Under the pieces are notes generated by a model. The model saw only the letters and a list, made by a program, of their open reading frames with translations, did not search any database and had not been told where the DNA came from. Both the position numbers and the translations under genes were made by a program. Positions 4,437 through 55,800 of a stretch of DNA of 64,000 nt are shown here, piece after piece. Source of the stretch: Branchiostoma floridae. Lineage: Eukaryota; Chordata; Leptocardii; Amphioxiformes; Branchiostomatidae. Position 1 is the first letter of the stretch. Each line of letters starts with the position of its first letter. The stretch covers positions 14,707,327 to 14,771,326 of the forward strand of contig NC_049996.1 in the NCBI RefSeq assembly GCF_000003815.2, read 5' to 3'.

Positions 4437-5260
4437 TACTAAGTATTGTGGAACCATGTGAAATTTAGGGTATGCAAACTGTATGTTGTTGCATTGAAGG
4501 AGTCTCCAATCTTTTGTAAACATTTGAATTGTTGTATGAAATATCATTGAGGAAATGATATTCTTGGTACATAACGTTATGTGTACTTAAATTTCTTATG
4601 GTGAAATGTACAATGTACATTGGAAGTTATTCAAGAGCAAGACTTGTTAATGTGTGACTCTGTAGTATAGGGGTAGCATTACAGTTGAAATTGCAATAAG
4701 ATATTTTCTTATCGATTATGCAGTAGAGCTTCATTTGCATAATTGATTTGTAATTAAATTTCTATCAAGCTCAAGTAACTTGTATTGTATGGGCCGACTG
4801 CTCTCTCTTCGCAGCCACGGGCTGAATTGCGAGGAGCTTACAATAGGCGGGGCTAAGTCGCAACGGTCTGAAATGGCAGCCTGTATACAGCGCCTGATGA
4901 CCTCAATACGACAGTAATTGCCCCAGGTGTGGCCAGGGATTGTAGGTTATTAACCACTCACACCGCACCATTGCACGTGTGGTGGGTTCTTTAACGTGCC
5001 TGGGGTATGGCTCTCCCCAGACACGGGACCGCCATTTTGGACTCATGGACTGCCAACACGTTTCACAGAAGGGAAACACTGTTCTTGCTTTTTTCTTCCT
5101 CTCTTCTGCTTCACAGAAAAATAAGTTCAATCACCTGGACCAGACGGCTGTCACCATGGTTACTAGTAAAGTAACAGACACCCTGTGGTGTTCGATTACA
5201 TGGTGTAGCAAGTTATGTAGCAAGTGGCAGGACAGGGTTGAAGGGGGTGGTCATCATGTA

Positions 5261-5734
5261 CAGTCAAACCTGCCCGAGCGACCACCTCTTCTCAGCGCCC
5301 ACCTGGCCATTTCGACCGCTTTTTCTCGGTCCCGATTTATTTTCCCATTGACGTAAGCATTAAGCGACCTTTTCTCAACGACCACCTGGCCAACGCGACC
5401 GCGACCGGCCCAAATTGGGACCCATAACGACCGCATCATTTTCAAAATCGATTTTTTATGATAACTAGCGCGATTTTGTGCCGAAATCAGCCAATTTGCG
5501 TCGGATTTTGGGGTTAAATTTACAGTTTACAGTGTGCGTGTTGTATTTGACATTAAAGACCTCGCTTCTTTGTGTGCGTGCAGTGTGCTTGCTATTTGGC
5601 ATTAAACACAACGGAAACCATTTATACTTTGCATCGGGCATGTTTTGAGTCGATACTCTTCTCAGCGACCACCTGTCCAAATCGACCACTTTTTTTCTGG
5701 TCCCCCGTGTGGTCGTCTTGGGCAGGTTTGACTG
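5261..5734. mobile_element. MITE with pogo/Tigger-like ends, copy 2 (inverted relative to copy 1)
   Basis: Begins CAGTCAAACCTGCCCGAGCG and ends GGGCAGGTTTGACTG, flanked by TA (5259-5260 and 5735-5736). Its interior matches the reverse complement of 3953-4436 nearly throughout. Together the two copies could pair into a long hairpin if co-transcribed. Confidence 0.8.
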
Positions 5735-5765
5735 TATATTGTAACAGTGGGGGTTCAAGTAGCGC

Positions 5766-6966: not shown

Positions 6967-9201
6967 ATGTCGACCTCGATGTCTATCAAACTAATCATAC
7001 TTGTATTGTTTCGTACGTGGGAAGTTGCAGCGCAAAACACCACCTGCCCAAAACCCTTTGAATGTTCCAAAGAGCACACCTCATGTCTGAGTTACTACAA
7101 CCGGGGGAATCTTCATTCTATCCCGTCGCCACTACCGTTGACTTTGACAAGACTTAATATACAGTATCAAAACATCACCATCATCAAGGTGGGGGATTTC
7201 CCTTTCCTGAAGTCTCTGGGGAGCCTGCGTTTGCTAGACTCTGGAGTTGCCAGCATTCAACCAGAGTCGTTTGCAGGCTTGCCGTGTTTATTAGAACTAA
7301 ATCTAGGAGGTAACAATATCAGGAAACTGGGGCCAGATACGTTTAAGGGACTGACAAAGCTGAACGTTTTGTACTTGACCAAAAACAAGATATATTTTGT
7401 TGATAAAGTAGCGTTTCTAGGGATACCTCAGTTGAAATTATTGGGTTTGAATAACAACTGTCTTTTTGGCATTCCACAAAGTATTACATTGATCAAATCA
7501 CTTGGACATTTGAATTTTCTAAACAATATCAAAACTTCTCCTTTGCTTGTAGAAGACCTGAAACGTCTATCTGTCTTGAACATGGGTATAAACAAGATAG
7601 GGTGTGATTGTAGAGAGCGGGAAGCCAAGAAATGGCTTCTTGAATCTCCACACACACTACGATGGCGTGTCATATGCATTGATGAAGTTACTAGCCAGAT
7701 GAAGCCACTGAAAGATATTCCATGGTCAGATCTGACATGTTCAGCACCTGAAGTGTCTGTTCTATTAGACAGTCCAGGTATGAATGTAGCAGAGAACATT
7801 TCAGTCATTTGCCAGACAAACTGCGAAGAAAGTCTCACATTCTCGTGGATACTACCCAGTGGCGAGCACAGGTCTTCAGATTACCGGTATTCCACAAACT
7901 ACACTCGTGTGAGAACGATGTCGTGTGAAAGGTCGGGTGTGGAAATATCAGAGACCAAGAGAATGTGCCACTCAGTGTTGAACATCCCTGTAGCTGACAA
8001 CACCACAGCAGGCAACTACACTTGCAGGGTGGCGACGAACTATACGGAATCCGCGACAGCATCGGTGATACTGACAATCAGCAATGCTACAAGGCTGCTA
8101 GACACCGTGGCTACCACAGGACTCGGAAATATTAACAGAAGTACTGCTAAAACAACGACAGTCATGTACCTGGTAACCTTCTTCTGTTGTGGCGTTATGT
8201 CTGGATTAACCATTTGTGTCATAAAAAGGGGATCGGTATCTAATGAAGATGGTGGACAAGGCAACACTGTGGAAGGACACTACGAAAACGACGACCAGTT
8301 TTCAGACGGAAATGACAATGCAAACAGACACTATGAAAACGACGATCAGCATCCTGACCCAAACAATGATGCAAACAGGCACTACGAAAACGACGACCAG
8401 TTTCCGGACTCAAATAATGATACAAACAGACACTACGAGAACGACGACCAGTTTTCAGACGGAAATGACGATGCAAACAGACACTATGAAAACGACGACC
8501 AGTTTTCTGACTCAAATAATGATACAAACAGACACTACGAGAACGACGACCAGTTTTCAGACGGAAATGACGATGCAAACAGACACTATGAAAACGACGA
8601 CCAGTTTTCTGACTCAGATAATGATACAAACAGACACTACGAGAACGACGACCAGTTTTCAGACGGATGTGATGATGCAAACAGACACTATGAAAACGAC
8701 GACCAGTTTTCTGACTCAAATAATGATACAAACAAACACTACGAGAACGACGACCAGTTTTCAGACGGAAATGATGCAACCAGACACTATGAAAACGACG
8801 ACCTGTTTTCTGACTCAAATAACGACACAAACGGACACTACGAAAACAACGATCAGTTTCAGGAGTCAAACAATGATTCAAACAAACACTACGAAAACAA
8901 AGACGGAAATGGAGATTCGCAAAGACACTATGAAAACGACGATCAATTTCCGGACACAAACAAAGTTACCGTCAGGCACTACGAGAATGATGACCAATTT
9001 TCGTCTGAAATCGGAGCCACGGTGAGGTCCGAAGAAAACGGCGACCAGTTTTCGGACGAAGAGGGGACATTGGAAGGTCACTATGGCAATGAAATCGGTG
9101 CAGAATCTTCCTTTAAGGCAAGTCCCCGGTATGAGGCACCTGTTGCAGTACAAGAAATGACATCAGGCTTGTACAACACTGACAGTCGTGAGGAACAGTA
9201 A
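6967..9201 (+). CDS. LRR-Ig transmembrane receptor with a tandem-repeat cytoplasmic tail
   Basis: Single-exon gene encoding 744 aa, a predicted cell-surface recognition receptor of the LRRIG type known to be expanded in amphioxus. Domains by residue: signal peptide 1-23 (SIKLIILVLF core); LRRNT cysteines near 27-42; about six leucine-rich repeats 55-211 (for example LLELNLGGNNIRKL); LRRCT 211-258 (GCDCREREAKKWLLES); one Ig domain about 259-373 with C..W..YTCRV; many N-glycosylation sequons; transmembrane segment about 398-420 (YLVTFFCCGVMSGLTICV); long acidic cytoplasmic tail 421-744 built of repeats. I start at ATG 6967, not at the ATG 351 bases upstream in the same frame: 6967 is followed by a signal peptide, and the upstream stretch is antisense LINE sequence. 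No introns are visible. Ligand unknown. Confidence 0.85.
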   Translation: MSTSMSIKLIILVLFRTWEVAAQNTTCPKPFECSKEHTSCLSYYNRGNLHSIPSPLPLTLTRLNIQYQNITIIKVGDFPFLKSLGSLRLLDSGVASIQPESFAGLPCLLELNLGGNNIRKLGPDTFKGLTKLNVLYLTKNKIYFVDKVAFLGIPQLKLLGLNNNCLFGIPQSITLIKSLGHLNFLNNIKTSPLLVEDLKRLSVLNMGINKIGCDCREREAKKWLLESPHTLRWRVICIDEVTSQMKPLKDIPWSDLTCSAPEVSVLLDSPGMNVAENISVICQTNCEESLTFSWILPSGEHRSSDYRYSTNYTRVRTMSCERSGVEISETKRMCHSVLNIPVADNTTAGNYTCRVATNYTESATASVILTISNATRLLDTVATTGLGNINRSTAKTTTVMYLVTFFCCGVMSGLTICVIKRGSVSNEDGGQGNTVEGHYENDDQFSDGNDNANRHYENDDQHPDPNNDANRHYENDDQFPDSNNDTNRHYENDDQFSDGNDDANRHYENDDQFSDSNNDTNRHYENDDQFSDGNDDANRHYENDDQFSDSDNDTNRHYENDDQFSDGCDDANRHYENDDQFSDSNNDTNKHYENDDQFSDGNDATRHYENDDLFSDSNNDTNGHYENNDQFQESNNDSNKHYENKDGNGDSQRHYENDDQFPDTNKVTVRHYENDDQFSSEIGATVRSEENGDQFSDEEGTLEGHYGNEIGAESSFKASPRYEAPVAVQEMTSGLYNTDSREEQ
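8275..9090 (+). repeat. Coding tandem repeat: about 51-bp units encoding HYENDDQF-type motifs
   Basis: About 16 units of roughly 17 codons (consensus RHYENDDQFSDSNNDTN). Fifteen retain HYEN, and the last ones drift (RSEENGDQF, GHYGNEIG). Most units alternate between two versions, ...SDGNDDAN and ...SDSNNDTN, giving a 102-bp higher-order period that suggests expansion in pairs. It sits wholly in the cytoplasmic tail of the LRR-Ig receptor. Each unit carries a Y-E-N motif matching the pY-x-N consensus of GRB2-type SH2 domains. Confidence 0.95.
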
Positions 9202-10306
9202 GACCCTCTAGTAGATGTAGACAAGTACGGGACAAGTAACAGATAACAACCCTGCACAGAAATATGCATATGGGACGTTTCCTGACAGTCAAAAGATCAC
9301 AGAGGAACAACGTGGTGTGACATACGCACCCAAGGAATGTGACGTCATGGATTCCGCTGACACAAAGAATGGATGACGTGTCAGGTTACGGACATATGTG
9401 GCCCTTCCCACTGCCCACAATACCTGCGAACAGGAAATCGAAACAGGAGGACATAGAAGTGGGCCATGAGAATTAAGTAGACAAAGTCGGTTTCTCCCTT
9501 TTTATCAAACAGAAGGTGTTACGGGACATTGGAATGTTACTGACACTTGATGGTTATGCTTTAACTAATTTCAAATGGACACCATCAAAGGCTCTACTCT
9601 TTGATCAGCAAGGGTATTTCAACCCATTTAAAACGCAGGAGTCATTTTTTGTTTGTGTATATCATGTATTTTAAGGTCACTTATATCATACGCTACGTCA
9701 ACAGCTGCCTGCAGGCTGATTTGAGCTGCTCATGAATAATGGTTCAAACAGACAAACAATCCAGGTCACCATGGTGATGCTTCACTCAGCAGACTAATAT
9801 AAACTCACTCTAGTTTCAATTATCAGTACGTACGAACGTGTCGCCTGTATCCACAACGTGTCAAAATACTCATTACAATAGATTGTGTTTCTTTCACAAC
9901 ACAGGCCCATTCTATCTATAGCACAAGAGTAACTGATAAAGATACAATATCATATATTTTAGAAAGAATAACTTTTTGCACAGACGGCATACCTAATATT
10001 GTAATAAATACTACTATTTCATATACTAAGTGCAGTTTCGCTTAAATGTATAACGATTGTTTTTTAGATTTTCAAATGAGACGAGTTTGGATGGAAAGAT
10101 TTTTGTTGGTCTTTGTCTTTGTTGGTCTTACATATTACAATTCAGAGCCACATACACATAATTTCAGTCTAAAAACAATGCCTTTTATTCAGAACATTAA
10201 TAACAACTCAAAGGAAGGGTTTAATTGTATAAAACGCATGCCATTAACCTCCTCGGGCTTTTTTATTATTTAAGCCGTATATCTTCACCGTATTGCATAA
10301 TAGTAT

Positions 10307-10812: not shown

Positions 10813-13180
10813 TTACTTTGTGAGTCTCATGTTTGCCACCCTGGTGCTGAAGTCGGTGGGACGGACCATCATTTTTGTTTTCTTCAGAGAATACTGATCC
10901 TCATTGTTGAACGGATACCACCGGACGCCGTTACCATTGTAGGCGTTGTTGAGCCCGTCGGTGTCTCGGAAGTACGGACCGTTCAAGTTACTGTAGCTGC
11001 CGTAGTCGTTGTACCACCAACCACCACCGTAAAGTTCCGTCATTGAACCTGTGCTATAATTACTGTCTTGGTCGAACCAACGGGCACTGAACTTTGCACC
11101 GTTGTTGCCTTGTGATGAACTTGACAGATGGAACCCATCCCCGGCCGTCCCACTGTACCCCCCGACACTCAGGATGTAATCAAAACGCGGACCGACTGAG
11201 AAGGTGCCATATCTAGCGTACTTCACATTCCCTACCCAGTCCTCAAGCTCAATATACATCTCGTAATGGTTATGGGCCGTTAGATAGTAGATGTTGTCTA
11301 ACCCCAGCCAGTATTCACCACTAGGGTCCCCAAACCCGTCTCGGTAAGCCCAGATATAGCGGAAAAACTCGAGGGACCCGTCAAACCTCCTCTGTATGAC
11401 CGTCCACCCTCCCCCATCTGTGGTCTGATCACAGTATACAGAGACTGGGTCGTTAAGATGACCTGGTTTGATAGTAAAAACCCCACTAGCTATCGAACCA
11501 AACATCGCCTGAGCAGAATAAATCTGAGAGCAGTCATCAAAATTGGTTGTTCGCCAAAGATCAGCAGGGATGGACGGCTGGTTGTGCGGAAGATGTTGCT
11601 TTTGGCCTCGTTCTACTTTGTTTTTCTCCTGCTCATCCTCTCTTGAAGTCAAAGATTCTGTAGCAAAGAAACGAAAAACATTCTACAGCAGAGCATTAGA
11701 CTGAGACCTAAAATACCAATATCGATTTCCTATCATGTTACACTAAATCGTTAAGTTTGTTTAGCAACAACATGACAACAGGAACTGAAAATATAACTAA
11801 TATGCTACTTGCATATAAGTGTACAAACTTACTCTTTCGACTTATGCATGGTCTTGCCAATGGTTGTAAAATATTATTAGACTTTTCTACAAACGAAGAG
11901 AGGGTGTTAGTTGAACTTCATGTCCGATTTAAAAGTGTTGAATTTTTAGGAAGTTATGATTAATGGGACACAAGACTGAAAATAATGATTTCAAAGCTGG
12001 TAAATTCATGTTTATTTCGTTTAGTCACTGAAAACAGACGATGGATGGTTTCTAATTTTTATCCAGTTGCTTGGGTAACTGCTATCTTGCGTATCTTATT
12101 ACCTGGATGCCGAACCTTTACCGACGTATTAATGACAGAATGACATTCAAAATGTGTATCACATTTTTGTGCGTTTTCAACAGTAAGTTGCTCACTTTGT
12201 TGCTGCTCCTCTATTGAGGACAGGGTTTCTCCAACATCAGCTGCCTCCTCTTCTTCAGGGTCCTGCAGGGTTCCTAAGGGAAATGAACACATGTATTCGT
12301 ATTTGTAGTAATGCCAGCTGCGTATGCGAAATAGAAGTGATGTGCAGTTCATTGTTAGCGATACTGCTTCAGGACCAGTTGTCTAAAGTTCAAAACGTTA
12401 CTAGGCAAACTAACTTTTGTTTGATTCCATTTTCTACTGTTTACTGTGGCAATAGAACATTGGTCTATATTGACTCTACAAATTGTGATACAGTAGTATG
12501 TTAGGCCGTGTTTACACAAGCGTTAGGTAGCGGAGATCCCCTCCTACGGGTCTGTAACTGTCGGGCTGGCCGCTAGAAGCGCGATTTAGTCAGGCTAGAA
12601 ATACATTGCTGTTACTGGTTTAAGCAAGTTACACACGTGCACTATGCCATTCACACGTGTCTCTACCTACCACAATCCACGCCATGCTTCTGTAACATTT
12701 CCAGCAAGTCGCCACAGATCGCCTGAGGAGTTCCGAGTTCACCGTTCTCCAAGTCGTTGACAATGGCTGAAATTTCATGGAAAATGGTCTGTTTTTAAAC
12801 AGGTGTTCGTTTGTTGTGTTGACTTGAATATCATAGACAGATAATAGTAACAAAGATATAGAAGTAAGATAGCAGTTGATATCTGGCCAAATTGCCTGGT
12901 ATCGATGTTGCTTCCTGAAGTTAAAATCTCGGGCCCTCTTCTTGTCTACCGTGTTCCCCAATGACCATGAGGTCTAGGGAGGTTAGGGTTAGGTCTATAT
13001 AGGAAAGAGTCTGTTCCATATGGTACTCTTTGTGTAACATTACAACTCGTACCAACCTGTCTCAACACACTCCTCCCAAACCCTGCACAGTGACAGGGCC
13101 AACTGGTCAGTACGGCCTTCTCCGGTCACTACAGACCACTGCAGAACTGCGGTCACCACGAACACATGGATGAGCGACAT
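10813..13180 (-). CDS. FREP-A: secreted fibrinogen-related protein, complete
   Basis: Four exons on the minus strand: 13180-13057 (leader), 12766-12671, 12273-12196, 11657-10813; 380 aa. All borders are AG/GT and all introns are phase 1. Exon 1 encodes a signal peptide (SLIHVFVVTAVLQWSVV) then RTDQLALSLCRVWEEC. Exon 2 adds a second Cys pair (ICGDLLEMLQKHGVDC). Exon 3 is acidic. Exon 4 is a short linker plus the fibrinogen C-terminal domain (FDDCSQIYSAQAMFGS, VSVYCDQTTDGGGWTVIQ, GEYWLGLDNIY, YSLKKTKMMVRP). Such lectin-like domains bind microbial glycans in innate immunity; that role is inferred from the family. The Ca-site region is present (WFDQDSNYSTG), but the second disulphide pair of the fold is absent. 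Closest relative in the window: FREP-E. Confidence 0.92.
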
Positions 13181-13719: not shown

Positions 13720-15820
13720 TTATGTCTGGCACCCTACCCTAGTGCTGAAATTTGTGGGACGGATCATCATTTTGGTCTTCTTCAGAGAATAGTTATTGTT
13801 ATTACTGTAGAACGGATACCAAAAGACGCCCAGACCATCGTTGCTGTTGTAGCGGTCGGGATCTCGGAAGTACGGACCGTTCAGGTTACTGTGGCCGAAC
13901 CCGTTGAACCACCAACCACCGCCGAAATATTCCGCCATTGAAGTCGAGGAGTCAGTGCCTTGGTCGTACCAACGGGTGCTGAACTTCGCACCATTGTTGG
14001 TAAATGATGAACTTGACAATAAGAACCCATCCCCTGCCGTCCCACTGTACCCCCCGACACTCAGGATGTAATCATACATTGGACCGACTGAGAAGGTGGA
14101 GTATCTAGCGTACTTCACATTCCCTACCCAGTCTGAAAGCACAATACACAGCTCGTACGCGTTCTGGTGCGTTATACGGTACATGTTGTCTAAACCTAGT
14201 CAGTACTCGCCACTAGGGTCCCCAAATCCGTCTCGGTAAGCACCGATACGGCGGAAAAACTGGACGGACCCATTATACCTCCTCTGTATGACCGTCCACC
14301 CTCCCCCATCTGTGGTCTGATCACAGTACACAGAAACTGGATCGCTACCATGGCTTGGTTTGATAGAAAACACCCCACTAGCTATAGAACCAGACATTGC
14401 CTGAGCAGAATAAATCTGAGAGCAGTCATCAAAATTGGTTGTTCTCCAGAGGCTGTTTCCGCTGGCCGGATGGTTGTGTGGAAGATGCTGCTTGTAGAAT
14501 CATGGTTCTCCTTTGTTTGTCACAGTCCTTTTCTCCGTCAGGTGAGGTCGTCAAAGACTCTGTAGCAGGGCAAAGAACGATCGAAAAACATTCAGGCACC
14601 TCACAGCTAGTTATATAAGTCTCAGTATAGTTTTCTACCAATGGGACGCTAGGATTAAATCTAAAACTGCAATATCGATTTCTTCTCATGTTGCATATAA
14701 ACTAGAACGGACATGTCGGCAGGAACTGAAGATATTGCTACGTGGTATATCATCAACAATGTATATCAATGTAAAACATATCCGAAATGCCGGACTGTTT
14801 CCCAATTTGATCAAGTTTCTTGAGCAACTGTTACCTTGCACATCTAATTACCTGGATGTCTAATACTCACCAACCTATCAATGACAAAAATGGCATTAGA
14901 ATGTGTACCACACGTCTGTGCGTTTTCAACCGTAAGTGACTCACCTTGCTCCTCATCATTGGTGTGAGGATCTAGTGAGGACAGGGTTCCTCCTACATCA
15001 GCTGTCTCTTCGTCAGGGTCCAGCGAGGTTCCTATGGGGAAAAATGGTCACATGTATTCTTTCTACATGTGTGTTTGGCCATGTTAGGTGAAATAGAAGT
15101 GATGTATAGTTAACTGTGATATATTTCACAGTTCTAAGTAAGTTATACAGTATGCTGGTCATCGATAAAGGTAGTCAAAAGTAATGTGTCTCGGTCTACT
15201 TACCACAATCCACGCCATGCTTCTCTAACATTTGTAGAAAGTCACCACAGATCGCCTGGAGAGTTCCGAGCTCAGCGTGTTCCAAGTCGTTGTTAATGGC
15301 TTGAATGGAGAGATTCAAATGTTGATCAATGCATACTGCATACTAGCCCAGCGATATATCCTATGTCACGTGGGGAATGGAGAGAGTATCATACCAACTA
15401 TCTCGTGTTGATTACAGTTTAAATATAGTTTTTGTGTTATCAACGCACAACGGGGGCTTTGTTTAAAGTGTAGTTGTTGTATATCCATATGCTAAGTAAC
15501 ATGTACCTCTCTGCATGCGTTGGCTTTTGTCTTTTTTAAAGATATTTGTCTCTCGCATGGTACTGAATATCGCAAAGAGAGATTGTAGGAATGAAGACGT
15601 AACTATCATCTGACCTGTACAACGAGCCATCTGGCTATGTGTTATGCATTTTATACCGATTTCATTTAACTTTATAACATCATAACTTGTGCTGACCTGT
15701 CTCAACACACTCCTGCCAAACCCTGCACAGTGACAGGGTCAACTGGTCAGTACGTCCTTCTCCGGTCACTACAGACCACTGTAGAACTGCGGTCACCACC
15801 AACACATGGATGAGTGACAT
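13720..15820 (-). pseudogene. FREP-B: fibrinogen-related gene with two disabling lesions
   Basis: Same four-exon plan: 15820-15697, 15299-15204, 15031-14945, and a fibrinogen exon from about 14563 to 13720. The first three exons are open and have good splice sites. In exon 4 the linker carries extra bases near 14503-14525 relative to FREP-D (a net +7), which shifts the frame. The TGG of the GEYWLG motif is TGA near 14209. Downstream of that the domain is intact in frame (YARYSTFSVGPMYDYILS to FSTRVGCQT). It is very similar to FREP-D throughout, introns included, so decay is recent. A short truncated secreted product from exons 1-3 remains possible. Confidence 0.85.
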
Positions 15821-49812: not shown

Positions 49813-52800
49813 ATGGCGACCATGTTCGCACAGCCTGGGCCGTCTGGCATCGGAGCGACGGGCGAACGTAAAATCTCTGCCTCGTCGCTACGCCGGGAGC
49901 CAACCTCCGCCACACAGGTCCATGCTGCGGCTGTAAACGGCGACAAATCCATGCTACAGAAACTCATATTCGGTAAGACTATTTGTTCTGTTAGGTTGAC
50001 ATAAAGTGGTTTCAGTAAATAGCTTGTTAAATGACTGAATATCACAGTTCTTGATTCCCAACCATGGAGTTACTACAGTCGTTGTTGGAACGGTTGTAAC
50101 TCTTTGGTTGTAAATAAAGTGAATAAGAAACTGTGTTATCCTGAATAAGATATATAACAGAAACTGTGTTGTTGTGTCAGCTAATTAAAGTTGTACACGA
50201 AACCAGAAGAAGAAGTGTAATAGTTAGAGTGTGTATTCCAGAATTAAGAGTCTTGGGTTCAAACCTCGATGTTATGCCCTTTTCATGACTTTCCCCAGTT
50301 TAAACTCAAAGGTAGGTGATATTCCAAGCAGAATTCGTGACCCAGGGTGCTTCCCCTATTGGGTCAGTTAGTCCTCACTCTTACTGAGTGGAGAAAGTCT
50401 CAATCATGATAGAAGAGGTGCTGTTTCTGTCCTATTCATGTAACCTGTAACGTTGATTGAAGGGTGGCCTTCAGTTCTTGTTACACGGTGAAAACTGAGT
50501 TTTAAAAATCAGAAAACAATTGTCTGTGATCACCTTGAACGGCGTATGTTTCATGGACATGACCTACACATGAATAGCTACAGTGTATGTGATAATATGT
50601 GTAACACTGGTATGTGAAAGGTTTGGCAATTATTTTGTTTTAGTTTCCTTGTAATTTTGAGTAGCCATAGACATACACATACTAGTACCTGTGTTATTCA
50701 TTGATGACTTGTATATCTAACTGCTAATTACTATGAGTCACTGTCTGTGAGGTGTGAGGTCTTCACTACTAACTTCCATAAGAATGTCTACCAATCACAA
50801 TGTCTTGTTTTAATCAGATTACAATTGCGATCATCAGTTAGTATAATATGTGGTCAAATTTCCACTATTTCTGCCAAGAGTGCTGTTACTTTCCTCAGGA
50901 GTATAACTAGAGGCTAATTAACTATGTGTCGTAAACAATGCTGTGTGCCAAACAACAAATGAGCTAATACAGTAACTGGTTTTTCCAGTTTGTAGCCACA
51001 TGTAGGTACATATAGTACGATACTATGGGTACAATACAGTACTTAAAATGTCAATGGTCAAACTCAAAGGGCATATGTGTGTATGTTTACGAAAGAAGTG
51101 ACAAAATCCATTGTTATATCCTTGACAAAGTAACAGTACTATAGTTTAGATATATCTTCTTTGCAAAAGACAGTTTGTAGTATTACTTTTACAATTTAGG
51201 AGCTAAATAAATGTGTGCTCAGTTTCTGGAAGATTTGATTTAAATTTTTCACAGTTGGTTTGAGTTTGTGCAGTTCACCCCGCTCATATCTGCATTTGCA
51301 GAAGTCATTAGTACATTTACCATTACCATCAAGTTATACAAGCAACTGTCATATTTGATAAATGTCATAGCAGTGCGTGAATTGTGTTAGAAAATGTCAC
51401 GGGTGAAAGGGGTTGTTCTTTTGGGAATTTCACATTTTCGTTAATAAGTTATGATGTGTCATGAAAGAGTCTGATATGGTATTGTCTGTATAGTAACATA
51501 TGAATGGTGTCAATAAGCATGTCTGTTCATGTATGAACCCTTACTTCACAATTCAGTGTTATGGTATTGAAATTTCAAGTCTTGAAACCCTGACCTTGAA
51601 TAGCTCTCAACCCTTGTTACAGTTAGTATACAAAGAAAGGTCCATGATGAGTCTGATTACTTTTTTGAACACTTTTATTTGTATAGCTAACATACATGTA
51701 ATTCTGCTTGGGCTTAATTGTAAGGGGTTACATTTTTCATTATTCCGGAAAGAGTCATAGATAGTAAAATACAGTTGTTACAGACCTTTAGCCATTTGCC
51801 TTAAGTGTCAAATCTCTACACATAAAAAGAAACATACAAAGAAACGCTACCCAAAATATAACCTTCTTGGCGAAGGTAAAAACACACACTAACAAGAGAA
51901 GTTGTGATCCAGTATACGTGACGGAAACTATCAGTACTATCGACTTGAAAAATCATTATGCTGCACAGAATTTGAGGATGACTTCTTCACCTTTACCTTT
52001 CCAGCTAACCCAGAACTGATAGACAGCGGAGACCAGTTTGGCCGGACCCCCCTGATGTACTGTGTGTTAGCGGACAGACCTGAGTGTGCAGAAACACTGC
52101 TGAAGACTGGAGCTAATACATACCTTTACCTTTACCTTTCCAGCTAACCCAGAACTGATAGACAGTGGAGACCAGTTTGGCCGGACCCCCCTGATGTACT
52201 GTGTATTAGCAGACAGACCTGAGTGTGCAGAAACACTGCTGAAGACTGGAGCTAATACATACCTTCACCTTTACCATTCCAGCTAACCCAGAACTGATAG
52301 ACAGCGGAGACCAGTTTGGCAGGACCCCCCTGATGTACTGTGTGTTAGCGGACAGACCGGAGTGTGCAGAAACACTACTAAAGACTGGAGCTAATACATA
52401 CCTTTACCTTTCCAGCTAACCCAGAACTGATAGACAGCGGGGACCAGTTTGGCCGGACCCCCCTGATGTACTGTGTATTAGCAGACAGACCTGAGTGTGC
52501 AGAAACACTGCTGAAGACTGGAGCTAATACATACCTTCACCTTTACCATTCCAGCTAACCCAGAACTGATTGACAGCGGAGACCAGTTTGGTCGGACCCC
52601 CCTGATGTACTGTGTGTTAGCGGACAGACCTGAGTGTGCAGAAACACTGCTGAAGACTGGAGCTAATACATACCTTCACCTTTACCATTCCAGCTAACCC
52701 AGAACTGATTGACAGCGGAGACCAGTTTGGTCGGACCCCCCTGATGTACTGTGTGCTAGCGGACAGACCGGAGTGTGCAGAAACACTGCTGTAGACTGGA

Positions 52801-55800
52801 GCTAATAGTATACATACCTGTACCTTTACCTTTCCAGCTAACCCAGAACTGATAGACAGCGGAGACCAGTTTGGCCGGACCCCCCTGATGTACTGTGTAT
52901 TAGCGGACAGACCTGAGTGTGCAGAAACACTGCTGAAGACTGGAGCTAATACATACATTTATCTTTACCTTTCCAGCTAACCCAGAACTGATTGACAGCG
53001 GAGACCAGTTTGGCAGGACCCCCCTTGATGTACTGTGTGTTAGCGGACAGACCGGAGTGTGCAGAAACACTGCTGAAGACTGGAGCTAATACATACCTTT
53101 ACCTTTCCAGCTAACCCAGAACTGATAGACAGCGGAGACCAGTTTGGTCGGACCCCCCTGATGTACTGTGTGCTAGCGGACAGACCGGAGTGTGCAGAAA
53201 CACTGCTGTAGACTGGAGCTAATAGTATACATACCTGTACCTTTACCTTTCCAGCTAACCCAGAACTGATAGACAGTGGAGACCAGTTCGGCAGGACTCC
53301 CCTGATGTACTGTGTGTTAGCGGACAGACCTGAGTGTGCAGAAACACTGCTGAAGACTGGAGCTAATGTCAACAAGAAGGACCAGGGGGGAAGGACTGCA
53401 CTGCACTTAGCTGCACACAGGGTAAGCAGCTGTAACAGTATATCTTAGCTTGAAGGGGGTTCATCATCATATCGTTCCGTGCCAATACTGCAACCAGGCC
53501 ATGGCCTTCTCATTAGGTCCTGGTTGGAAGTTAAGGATGCATCTGGTACTGTAAATACAGAAATGTTCGCGGTGGATTAATGTTCGCGGTTTTCCCGGTG
53601 ACCACTTCACCACAAACTTAAATCCACCGCAAACATTTTTCTGTTGTGGTATTAGACTGCCGTCTGCGGTGTTACAGGGAACTTAAATCCACCGAGAAAA
53701 GTCCCTTTTCCCGCTACCGCGAACTTAAATCCCCGGGAACTTAAATGCATTTACAGTATTGTATTTGCCGACTACTCTCTTTGCAGCCATTGGCTGAATC
53801 ACAAGGGTCTGAAGTGAGCTGCCATTTGGCACCACTCAGGTGACCTAATACTGTAGCTGTGGTAATAGGTCGGTAATAGCCATATAATAAAACAATGGTG
53901 TTTTTATAGAAGTTTGTTACGTCAATGAAGATTAGGCATCCAGGTAATAAGATATGTCAAAAAGCAGTTACTTTTTGGCATACAGTGGCTTGTATTAGGA
54001 CAGAAAGCAACCCAGGACAAACTTCATGTTTGTTTTCGCACAGGGTAACTTCCGCTGTTTGAAACTGATGATCTCCAAGGGTGCAAACTGGAGAGAGAGA
54101 GACAAGGAGGCAGTGACGGCCCTGCATCTGGCCACTAAACACAAGAGCCCCAAACTGGTGGCCTTATTGTTAAAACAGATGGAGCCAGGGGATGTGGACA
54201 TGCAAGATGAAAACAAGGTCAGATTCACACACATACTTTTCGGTTTATCATCTACATAGATTGTCACAGTGCATTTCAAACTGGAAAATTTCCTGGAGCT
54301 TACATTGAAGGTTTCATGTAAGATGTACAGGTGTGCATATATTTTGTTACAGACATTCATTTGCTTTGTATGCTAGACAACATTTTTGTGTATCATTCAC
54401 AATAAAGATTATTTGTTGTTCCACAGAGAACGGCCCTTCATTGGAGTGCTTCATATGGGAATGCAGAACACGTCAAAACCCTCATCAAGCATGTGAGTAT
54501 CTTGCCTTGTTTTTGTTAAAAACATTGAATTATTTTATGTTGTACTGTACTGTATACACAGCCACAGGGCTAAAAAACTTTTGTCTATAAAATTACCTAC
54601 ACCACCATACTTGAAAAGGACACTTTTAAAACTATGGACCAATCTGCTAATCATTTAGAAGCCATTTAAATTCCATACTATAGTCAACATTTCATAATTA
54701 AGTGGTAACATAATTACAGATCGTGTTACACTTATTACTAGCAGATGAAACTGATCAATATTGTTATAAAAGCATTTGAATGACAAAACGTCTTGTGTTG
54801 TTTGCAGGATTTTAACATTGGCATCCCGGATACAGCCGGGAAGACTCCCCTGCACTGGGCAGCCAGCAGTAAGGACCCCTCTGCTGTACAGGCTGTCAAA
54901 TACTTACTGGTGAGACATTTTTTCTCTTTAACTGTAGAAGTCTTAGGGAAGGTTAGAAACTGGCTTCACCGTGAGTATGTATGCAACATTTTAAGGGTTA
55001 ATGAGGCTACGAGTTGTGAAGGGTTACAAATGCATGTCGGCTTTCAAGTACCTACTGGTGAGATGTGTTTCTGTGTCAGCTGTTTAACCATAGAAGTATC
55101 AAGCTTGTGTAGGAACTGTCTTTATCATCAGTACATAATGGTTTGAAGGATAAAGAGGAACCATAGATATAGTGTAATCTTACAACTGTTGTTTTTCGAA
55201 AATACCATGATCACAATTTTGTATTTTGCCTGCTTCGTATTAGGATGCAGTAATGGTGAGTCTTAAGCTATCAAAGAGTTTTCAGATTTTATAGGAAAAG
55301 CTTGCTGTCCTTTTTGTATCAGTTGATACGGTAGATGTCATTTTGAATGTTCTTGCCAAGTTTATAATACCAGAATTAACCATCTGAAAGAAGAACAGAA
55401 TGAAATCCTTAAAATAACTCTCTGTCTTAGCCTTTGTAGATACCAAAATTTCACATTTTGCTCTTTCCCCCCTTCCTACAGGAGGCAGCTCCGAGTGTGA
55501 TCAACTGGCAGGACTACGAGGGTCGGACAGCCCTGCACTTAGCTGTGGCTGACGGCAATGAGAAAGTCGTGGATGTGCTGGTTAGTAGTTACACCCTAGA
55601 TCAAGCTACTTCATGAACATAGTGTGGAAATATTACTGCAAATGATGAAGTTTTTCCAGCAACTTAATGTTTGTTTGTTTTTGCAGTGACCTCTTCACTG
55701 CAAGCTGTCTTACCTACCCCGTTCTTTCAGCCATGAATTAAAAATCACAGTGAACACTTTTTTTTTCCTTAAGGGTAAAAGATAGTCCTTTAACCTTATT

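Follow-up and report, generated by a model that had tools for sequence, protein, structure and literature searches.

LAT, one of the closest described relatives of the arrangement reported here, has no ligand-binding ectodomain and only a short extracellular part, and its few sites stand in no tandem order; NTAL is likewise a transmembrane adaptor with YxN sites (tyrosine with asparagine at +2). For PLC-gamma1, LAT has a site of its own (PMC12734389, PMC5440646; papers cited by PMC number are represented here by excerpts). In the amphioxus Branchiostoma belcheri, GADS, SLP-76 and Itk exist and SLP-76 binds both GADS and Itk; the excerpted report found no LAT-like molecule, and its authors suggested that the complex might be recruited by a membrane protein not yet known (PMC5431462). 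Here we analyse a 64,000-nucleotide stretch of Branchiostoma floridae DNA (assembly GCF_000003815.2, contig NC_049996.1, positions 14,707,327 to 14,771,326 of the forward strand; 'the window'), in which a predicted LRR-Ig receptor gene encodes a tail with fifteen tandem HYEN motifs. On sequence evidence the array is a real and family-wide feature, apparently under selection and probably a multivalent YxN docking tail.

Results

Fifteen tandem HYEN units in a predicted receptor tail

The window gene is a predicted single-exon open reading frame (ORF) of 744 residues plus stop at 6967–9201 on the plus strand (coding part 6967–9198), whose translation reads as an LRR-Ig type I membrane receptor. 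Its tail holds tandem HYEN units at 8278–9027, starting at 8278, 8329, 8380, 8431, 8482, 8533, 8584, 8635, 8686, 8737, 8785, 8836, 8887, 8926 and 8977. These are exactly the fifteen that the original prediction had counted, and Tandem Repeats Finder (TRF) independently detects a 51-bp period at 8276–8898 (score 782). The predicted even 17-residue spacing holds for most units but not for unit 10 (16 residues) or unit 13 (13 residues); both indels are in frame, being multiples of three, and alignment of the units shows that the one in unit 13 deletes QFSD while HYEN stays. Similarly, the acidic context proposed as fixed is largely constant within DDQFSD but not across the second half of each unit. 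A 102-bp period scores higher (888) than the 51-bp period; judged from the repeat pattern, this higher-order repeat is the mark of recent array expansion by two-unit steps. Downstream lie a degenerate unit 16 (SEENGDQFSD, 9028–9078), from which the Tyr is absent, and a C-terminal segment (9079–9198), read from the translation and from comparison with paralogues, that comprises HYGN (unit 17, starting at 9079) and the final Tyr residues.

A chance origin of the array is excluded: shuffling the tail 20,000 times never gave more than 10 copies of YxN (mean 2.9; 16 observed) or more than 2 of HYEN (15 observed). The array is also open in a second plus frame (266 residues) and in one minus frame (241 residues), so openness alone is no proof of the reading frame; continuity with the LRR, Ig and transmembrane (TM) parts and the in-frame indels weigh more. 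Among the other ORFs of the window, none with at least four YxN was found.

Upstream of the array, the plus strand encodes a signal-peptide-like N-terminus (MSTSMSIKLIILVLFRTWEVAAQ, 6967–7035), a leucine-rich repeat region with flanking cysteines (7042–7740; Pfam LRR_8, E 5.1e-18), an Ig-like domain with a conserved C...W...YxC pattern (7747–8079) and a single TM segment (8167–8223, residues 401–419, Kyte-Doolittle maximum 2.10) followed by a stop-transfer KRG. The Ig-like domain is a weak profile match (I-set E 6e-4, Ig_3 E 1.7e-3), both matches falling under the Pfam gathering cut-offs. Against PDB, the LRR part matches LRR ectodomains down to 1.5e-46, LRIG1 and LRRC4 among them, and the order LRR, Ig, one TM segment is the LRR-Ig receptor architecture of the LRIG and LRRC4 type, a likeness of architecture for which we claim no orthology. 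The tail itself (325 residues, isoelectric point 4.05, charge about −69) has no match in Pfam, nor in PDB sequences up to E 1. Nine N-glycosylation sequons lie N-terminal of the TM segment and six more (NDT/NDS) inside the tail. The signal-like N-terminus, the nine sequons before the TM segment, the single TM segment followed by KRG and the acidic tail together fit a type I topology with a cytoplasmic tail; an extracellular tail, which the original prediction had named as fatal to a docking role, is not what this topology gives. The ratio of nonsynonymous to synonymous substitution rates in the ectodomain (0.37–0.45 against five close paralogues) indicates purifying selection, and thus the window gene is probably functional.

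Codon changes within the array

If the array serves docking, Tyr and Asn should be kept while the spacers drift, an outcome set beforehand as a test, and within the gene this is what the codons display. Across units 1–15, the HYEN codons differ by purely silent changes, with 0.000 nonsynonymous (pN) and 0.84 (0.843) synonymous (pS) differences per site, compared with a pN of 0.222 and a pS of 0.484 in the 13 spacer codons. Even among the most diverged units (12–15), pN is 0 for HYEN versus 0.40 (0.396) for the spacers. On a tree built from the spacers only, the core underwent 7 changes at third codon positions and 0 at first or second positions; for the spacers the figures are 23 and 38. Given the spacers' own omega and a transition/transversion ratio of 2, the chance that all seven core changes would be silent is 3e-4. 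When units 16 and 17 are added, the core changes become 10 third-position and 4 first- or second-position, which reflects the alteration of His, Tyr and Glu at the distal edge. Because unequal exchange makes the units non-independent, a comparison between genes counts for more.

A dispersed family of related receptors

The original prediction described one receptor and proposed a search for further tandem HYENDD units. Searching the window's own assembly (513,431,437 bases, 431 contigs) in six frames gave 44 tail-matching places, window included. With the ectodomain as query, 26 matches are listed to E 1.1e-38, each at a place that also has the tail; the next are three at 9.5e-38 to 1.5e-36 (29–32% identity), then generic LRR proteins from 2e-21. 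These ectodomain matches come from the 109 of 1,958 candidates that were scored, as far as listed, so the counts are lower bounds. We fetched 34 regions, 27 of which contain an ORF with at least three YxN (the other seven are L031, L034–L038 and L040). From the resulting 28 ORFs, window gene included, we dropped L022, L033 and L042, in which no TM segment was called (in L033 the bases at that place are masked), and L027, L029 and L039, which are partial or have a TM segment misplaced by the rule used. The remaining 22 ORFs combine an LRR ectodomain, a TM segment and a tail with 3–15 YEN. The array of the original prediction therefore stands, but its bearer belongs to a dispersed gene family and is not a lone receptor.

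The shared architecture is evident in all members. LRR_8 matches 22 of 22 ORFs, C213, C215, C237 and C258 of the LRR region are invariant or nearly so, and in the Ig-like domain Y351 and C353 are invariant and C282 and W294 nearly invariant, with an Ig_3 match at E up to 0.01 in six. Ectodomains of the other family genes are mostly 37–45% identical to that of the window gene, which has the highest count of both YEN and YxN. Not all copies are intact; L009 and L016 lack an in-frame start near the N-terminus. In the ectodomain tree, the window gene and its five closest relatives form a clade (100/100) whose branch is 0.81 changes per site long, and the long rows L028, L032 and L041 are uncertainly placed. 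One of these five relatives lies on C4 and four are clustered about 140–155 kb away on C18; they have only 3–6 YEN in frame, which suggests that the fifteen units of the window gene are probably a recent gain. In L014, a paralogue of the cluster, the array is split over two frames, and a second ORF of 177 residues holds further units. In titles and abstract openings, a search from which subscription papers mostly fell out, we found no description of tandem YEN tails or of this receptor family.

Conservation of the unit between paralogues

In 194 units from 26 ORFs, the family unit has a conserved core, Y-E-N-D-[DN]-Q-F-[SP]-D, of which N+2 is the most constant residue (191/194, 98%). Tyr is kept in 178 units (92%), E+1 in 96% and the two following Asp in 83% and 77%; in the distal half of the core, Q+5 reaches 95%, F+6 85%, Ser 76% and D+8 78%. 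The seven flanking columns have a consensus of only 21–68%, and the spacers are gene-specific. Detecting units with one column left out at a time gives a similar order: N+2 leads at 94% and is the majority residue in all 27 of 27 genes, followed by E and Q (89% each) and then Y (87%). The expectation that Y and N would be kept while spacers drift is thus borne out between paralogues too, and the contrary outcome, Tyr or Asn as variable as the spacer, did not occur among them.

The codons point the same way. In 4,000 sampled pairs between genes, pS at the Y, E and N codons is saturated (1.4–1.5) and pN is 0.07, 0.03 and 0.01, respectively, versus 0.30–0.58 in the flanking columns; Tyr is encoded 94 times by TAC and 84 times by TAT. 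Identity within genes is 52% for the spacers and 82% for the core; between genes it is 27% and 76%. From these identities, each gene is seen to have homogenised its own spacer, and all genes to have kept nearly the same core.

Other tyrosine motifs in the tails

Outside the array, the tails contain two further classes of tyrosine site. One to four YDN sites occur in 19 of the 22 ORFs, mostly as HYDN[DE] after the array and in an unrelated context; HYGN of the window gene (9079) is the counterpart of the single-copy HYDN in L009, L015 and L019. Among Tyr residues after the array, 49 of 179 have N at +2, compared with an N composition of 6.9% (p 5e-17, an optimistic value given that the genes are related). 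In an alternative count over non-array Tyr, N stands at +2 in 42 of 176, with D at +1 in 34 of these and A, G, N, E or S in 8. The HYDN sites keep Y and N without the downstream QF, and thus Y-x-N is the part that both site classes have in common.

The second class, Y-x-[TSA]-[LF]-[PS], lies distally in 16 of the 22 ORFs, typically as [ND]SDH[DT]Y[IVM]T[LF]P, and is absent from the window gene, L009, L014, L018, L019 and L028. No YVTFP-like site is in frame in the window gene; the counterpart lies beyond its stop, at 9230–9310 (+), in another frame, where the sequence is homologous to the in-frame YVTFP end of L015 (tblastn E 4.6e-8, 67% over 27 positions). The fifteen array sites, all reading YEND, YENN or YENK, do not follow the YxxL/I pattern of the immunoreceptor tyrosine-based activation motif (ITAM) or hemITAM; the distal class of the paralogues resembles it, but the 71 Y..[LF]P sites counted over the 25 ORFs that have a called TM segment show Phe (36) as often as Leu (35). 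A looser version of the distal pattern gives 75 matches, of which 52 have Tyr at the Tyr place, 19 Cys (18 of these in L022) and 4 Asn, so that conservation of this Tyr is less strict. With their acidic residues and often D at −1, the distal sites fit substrate rules of the ZAP-70 type, as excerpted; by the same account LAT Y191, with R or K at −2, is a slow ZAP-70 substrate (PMC5089863). With a proximal YxN array and distal sites side by side in 16 of 22 ORFs, the tails look like those of a receptor into which a LAT-like scaffold has been built.

Several loci at the margin of the family have tyrosine repeats of their own. The distal array of L022 (5179–7173, +) has 21 matched units, with Cys at the Tyr place in 18 (HTCVTLPG) and Tyr in 3; its ectodomain and tail are in separate ORFs, so it is probably a decaying copy, one that illustrates how homogenisation can spread a Tyr-less unit. 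L041 (654–3659, −) is a paralogue with few YEN units and a long tandem array of KPNDYQALKFPENP-type units, a repeated YxxL motif. L042 (1554–2834, −), a short ORF without a TM segment, has a tandem GHYENDEEHKYFQYDKN array followed by PFYEMD/PFYKMD repeats and is a different gene with repeated tyrosine motifs. L043 is the end of a distant relative (ectodomain match at C4:9374243-9375232, 29% identity) with one copy each of DYENDNE and YVNA, in a different frame or exon; it perhaps represents the state before expansion.

Candidate partners in amphioxus

A GRB2 orthologue is present in the same genome, on C13, as four matched pieces 72–78% identical to human GRB2, one of which has a listed stop outside the aligned exon part. 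The SH2 exons are 78–79% identical to human and retain FLIRESES, VQHFKVL and KYFLWVVKF; Trp121 within KYFLWVVKF (the EF loop of GRB2) is, we assume, the source of specificity for phosphorylated YxN (pYxN). The excerpted analysis of the Grb2 SH2 domain puts the worth of N+2 at 2–3 orders of magnitude in predicted affinity (PMC12521615).

Other features of the window

Beside the receptor gene are two minus-strand ORFs with fibrinogen C-terminal domains, at 10813–11682 (Pfam E 2.3e-53) and 13720–14199 (Pfam E 2.1e-26), which are probably fibrinogen-related lectin-type genes. Upstream of the receptor, 5260–5737 is flanked by inverted copies of ACAGTCAAACCTGCCC, seen by eye, and is probably a non-autonomous DNA transposon. 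At 51985–53367 are ten tandem copies of a 139-bp unit, the consensus of which (GRTPLMYCVLADRPECAETLL) looks ankyrin-repeat-like by eye.

Discussion

We favour the interpretation that the tail of the window receptor is an intracellular, multivalent phosphotyrosine docking array for GRB2-family SH2 domains, and we hold it with a confidence appreciably better than even, limited by the conservation of QF, the Tyr losses and a negative result for GADS. Such a receptor would work as follows. Ligand would engage or cluster the LRR-Ig ectodomain, and a tyrosine kinase, of Src type or another, would phosphorylate the repeated Y-E-N-D sites. Each pY-x-N could then bind the SH2 domain of GRB2 or GADS, as the motif and the conserved partner suggest; several such adaptors on one chain would recruit SOS, GAB or SLP-76-type partners and, through SH3 partners, might crosslink receptors into clusters.

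A number of observations weigh against this interpretation. Tyr is lost more often than Asn (178/194 versus 191/194 kept, Fisher p 0.004), although some losses are one inherited event. Q+5, as constant as E+1, and F+6 are conserved outside the usual SH2 footprint; because GRB2-type recognition is dominated by N+2, this conservation implies an extra constraint beyond SH2 docking. Either redundancy tolerates single Tyr losses, or the motif has a second function. Concerted evolution inside arrays inflates the conservation seen within the gene. After the array, N occurs 6, 49, 4, 2, 14, 7, 7 and 49 times at +1 to +8 from Tyr, so that +8 equals +2; the +8 peak fits the distal units Y..[LF]P..EN, which contain TEN, and shows that repeats shape such counts. 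Asp at +3 is not the usual GRB2 preference. R or K occupies −2 in 13 of the 15 YEN units of the window gene and, by the excerpted rules, would hinder a ZAP-70-type kinase (PMC5089863). Finally, published tests of amphioxus GADS against human LAT and human SLP-76 saw no obvious interaction with either (PMC5431462), which leaves a pYxN-binding GADS in amphioxus unproven.

The alternative that survives best, which we nevertheless consider improbable, is that the unit is another linear motif centred on E-N-D-x-Q-F, for example for an endocytic adaptor or as an acidic short motif, with Tyr secondary. It would account for the constancy of Q+5, F+6 and D+8 and for the greater loss of Tyr than of Asn, and Tyr-less units (SEENGDQF or SEENSVQF) persist in the window gene and in L009, L018 and L019, all four members of the window subfamily, as well as in the second frame of L014. 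However, the single-copy HYDN sites do without QF, so that only Y-x-N is common to both classes, unit 13 of the window gene retains HYEN without QFSD, and Tyr codons change silently between TAC and TAT with a low pN.

Two further alternatives appear to us about equally remote. In the first, minisatellite slippage would have generated the array as an acidic, disordered spacer whose individual sites have no role of their own, a function that the original prediction had kept in reserve. The recent expansion with its 102-bp higher-order repeat, the variation in YEN number across the family and the strong negative charge of the tail would all suit a spacer. But a spacer should let Y, E and N drift, and their pN is instead a small fraction of that in the flanking columns, a constraint that holds between genes whose ectodomains have diverged widely from that of the window gene; the codon evidence disfavours a pure spacer role. 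In the second, the tyrosines would dock another class of SH2 domain (Src-like, FES or a lineage-specific adaptor) rather than GRB2 or GADS. The acidic +1 residue suits the c-Src SH2 domain, yet that domain, as excerpted, prefers Ile at +3 (PMC10065799), where the array has Asp, and the most constant residue of the unit, N+2, is the GRB2 signature. Metal binding by the DSNNDTN half, also held in reserve by the original prediction, is very unlikely and we reject it as a main role: D-x-N-x-D-x-N in its strict form is found in 7 of 17 units, and in 9 when D and N are allowed to interchange, but it occurs in the window subfamily alone (spacers elsewhere in the family read, for example, TEGATGG or GARDG) and thus lacks the conserved acidic ligand positions of EF-hand or RTX-type calcium repeats, its four D/N columns are nearly as changeable on the spacer tree as the three x columns (20 versus 21 changes), and the tail is by sequence cytoplasmic and without a Pfam match.

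Returning to the docking interpretation, a broader and considerably more tentative proposal is that amphioxus LRR-Ig receptors of immune type carry LAT inside. A single tail uniting the proximal GRB2/GADS array, the HYDN sites and a distal Y[IVM]T[LF]P array, the last serving a kinase or PLC-gamma, could directly seed SLP-76 signalosomes or condensates, and the number of repeats would set the output. If true, this would explain how SLP-76 is recruited in a chordate where no LAT has been found; receptors with 3–15 sites of the pYxN type are a concrete candidate for the unknown membrane protein that recruits the amphioxus SLP-76 complex. The family would also be a natural valency series on otherwise similar receptors, with a bearing on the evolution and signalling thresholds of multivalent phosphotyrosine scaffolds, and the array illustrates how short signalling motifs can be kept by selection within a fast minisatellite.

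How does this family compare with known systems? Among these, CD6 has an ectodomain of the scavenger-receptor type, that of teleost LITR 1.1b is Ig-only, and the YxxP sites of p130Cas are irregularly spaced. LITR 1.1b resembles the family as an innate receptor with a tail YxN predicted to bind GRB2 directly in phagocytosis, but in the excerpt it has a single YxN, beside immunoreceptor tyrosine-based inhibitory and switch motifs (ITIM/ITSM; PMC4810170). Amphioxus FrLRR is likewise an LRR protein tied to GRB2 and phagocytosis; in contrast to the receptors described here, it is reported with no cytoplasmic tail, a predicted glycosylphosphatidylinositol-anchor site and a folate-receptor domain, and its authors do not know how it meets GRB2 (PMC10199209). 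In CD6 the receptor tail's own YxN recruits GADS–SLP-76, and CD6 has been proposed as an alternative scaffold to LAT, but the excerpt describes one GADS site and one SLP-76 site, with no tandem array (PMC5440646). Human p130Cas (BCAR1) has 15 YxxP for one SH2 class, and choanoflagellates have transmembrane proteins that repeat YxxP on the cytosolic side, one of them 10 times; these sites serve CRK and, as excerpted, come without an LRR-Ig ectodomain (PMC5043372). The fifteen sites on one chain of the window receptor would make the multivalent platform originally proposed, but not one of unique valency. The likeness to LAT and NTAL lies in several YxN on one membrane-anchored tail, which in those adaptors recruit GRB2 and GADS–SLP-76 (PMC12734389, PMC5440646). 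The difference places the family outside that of LAT: its members join an LRR-Ig ectodomain of about 400 residues to 3–15 near-identical sites in tandem.

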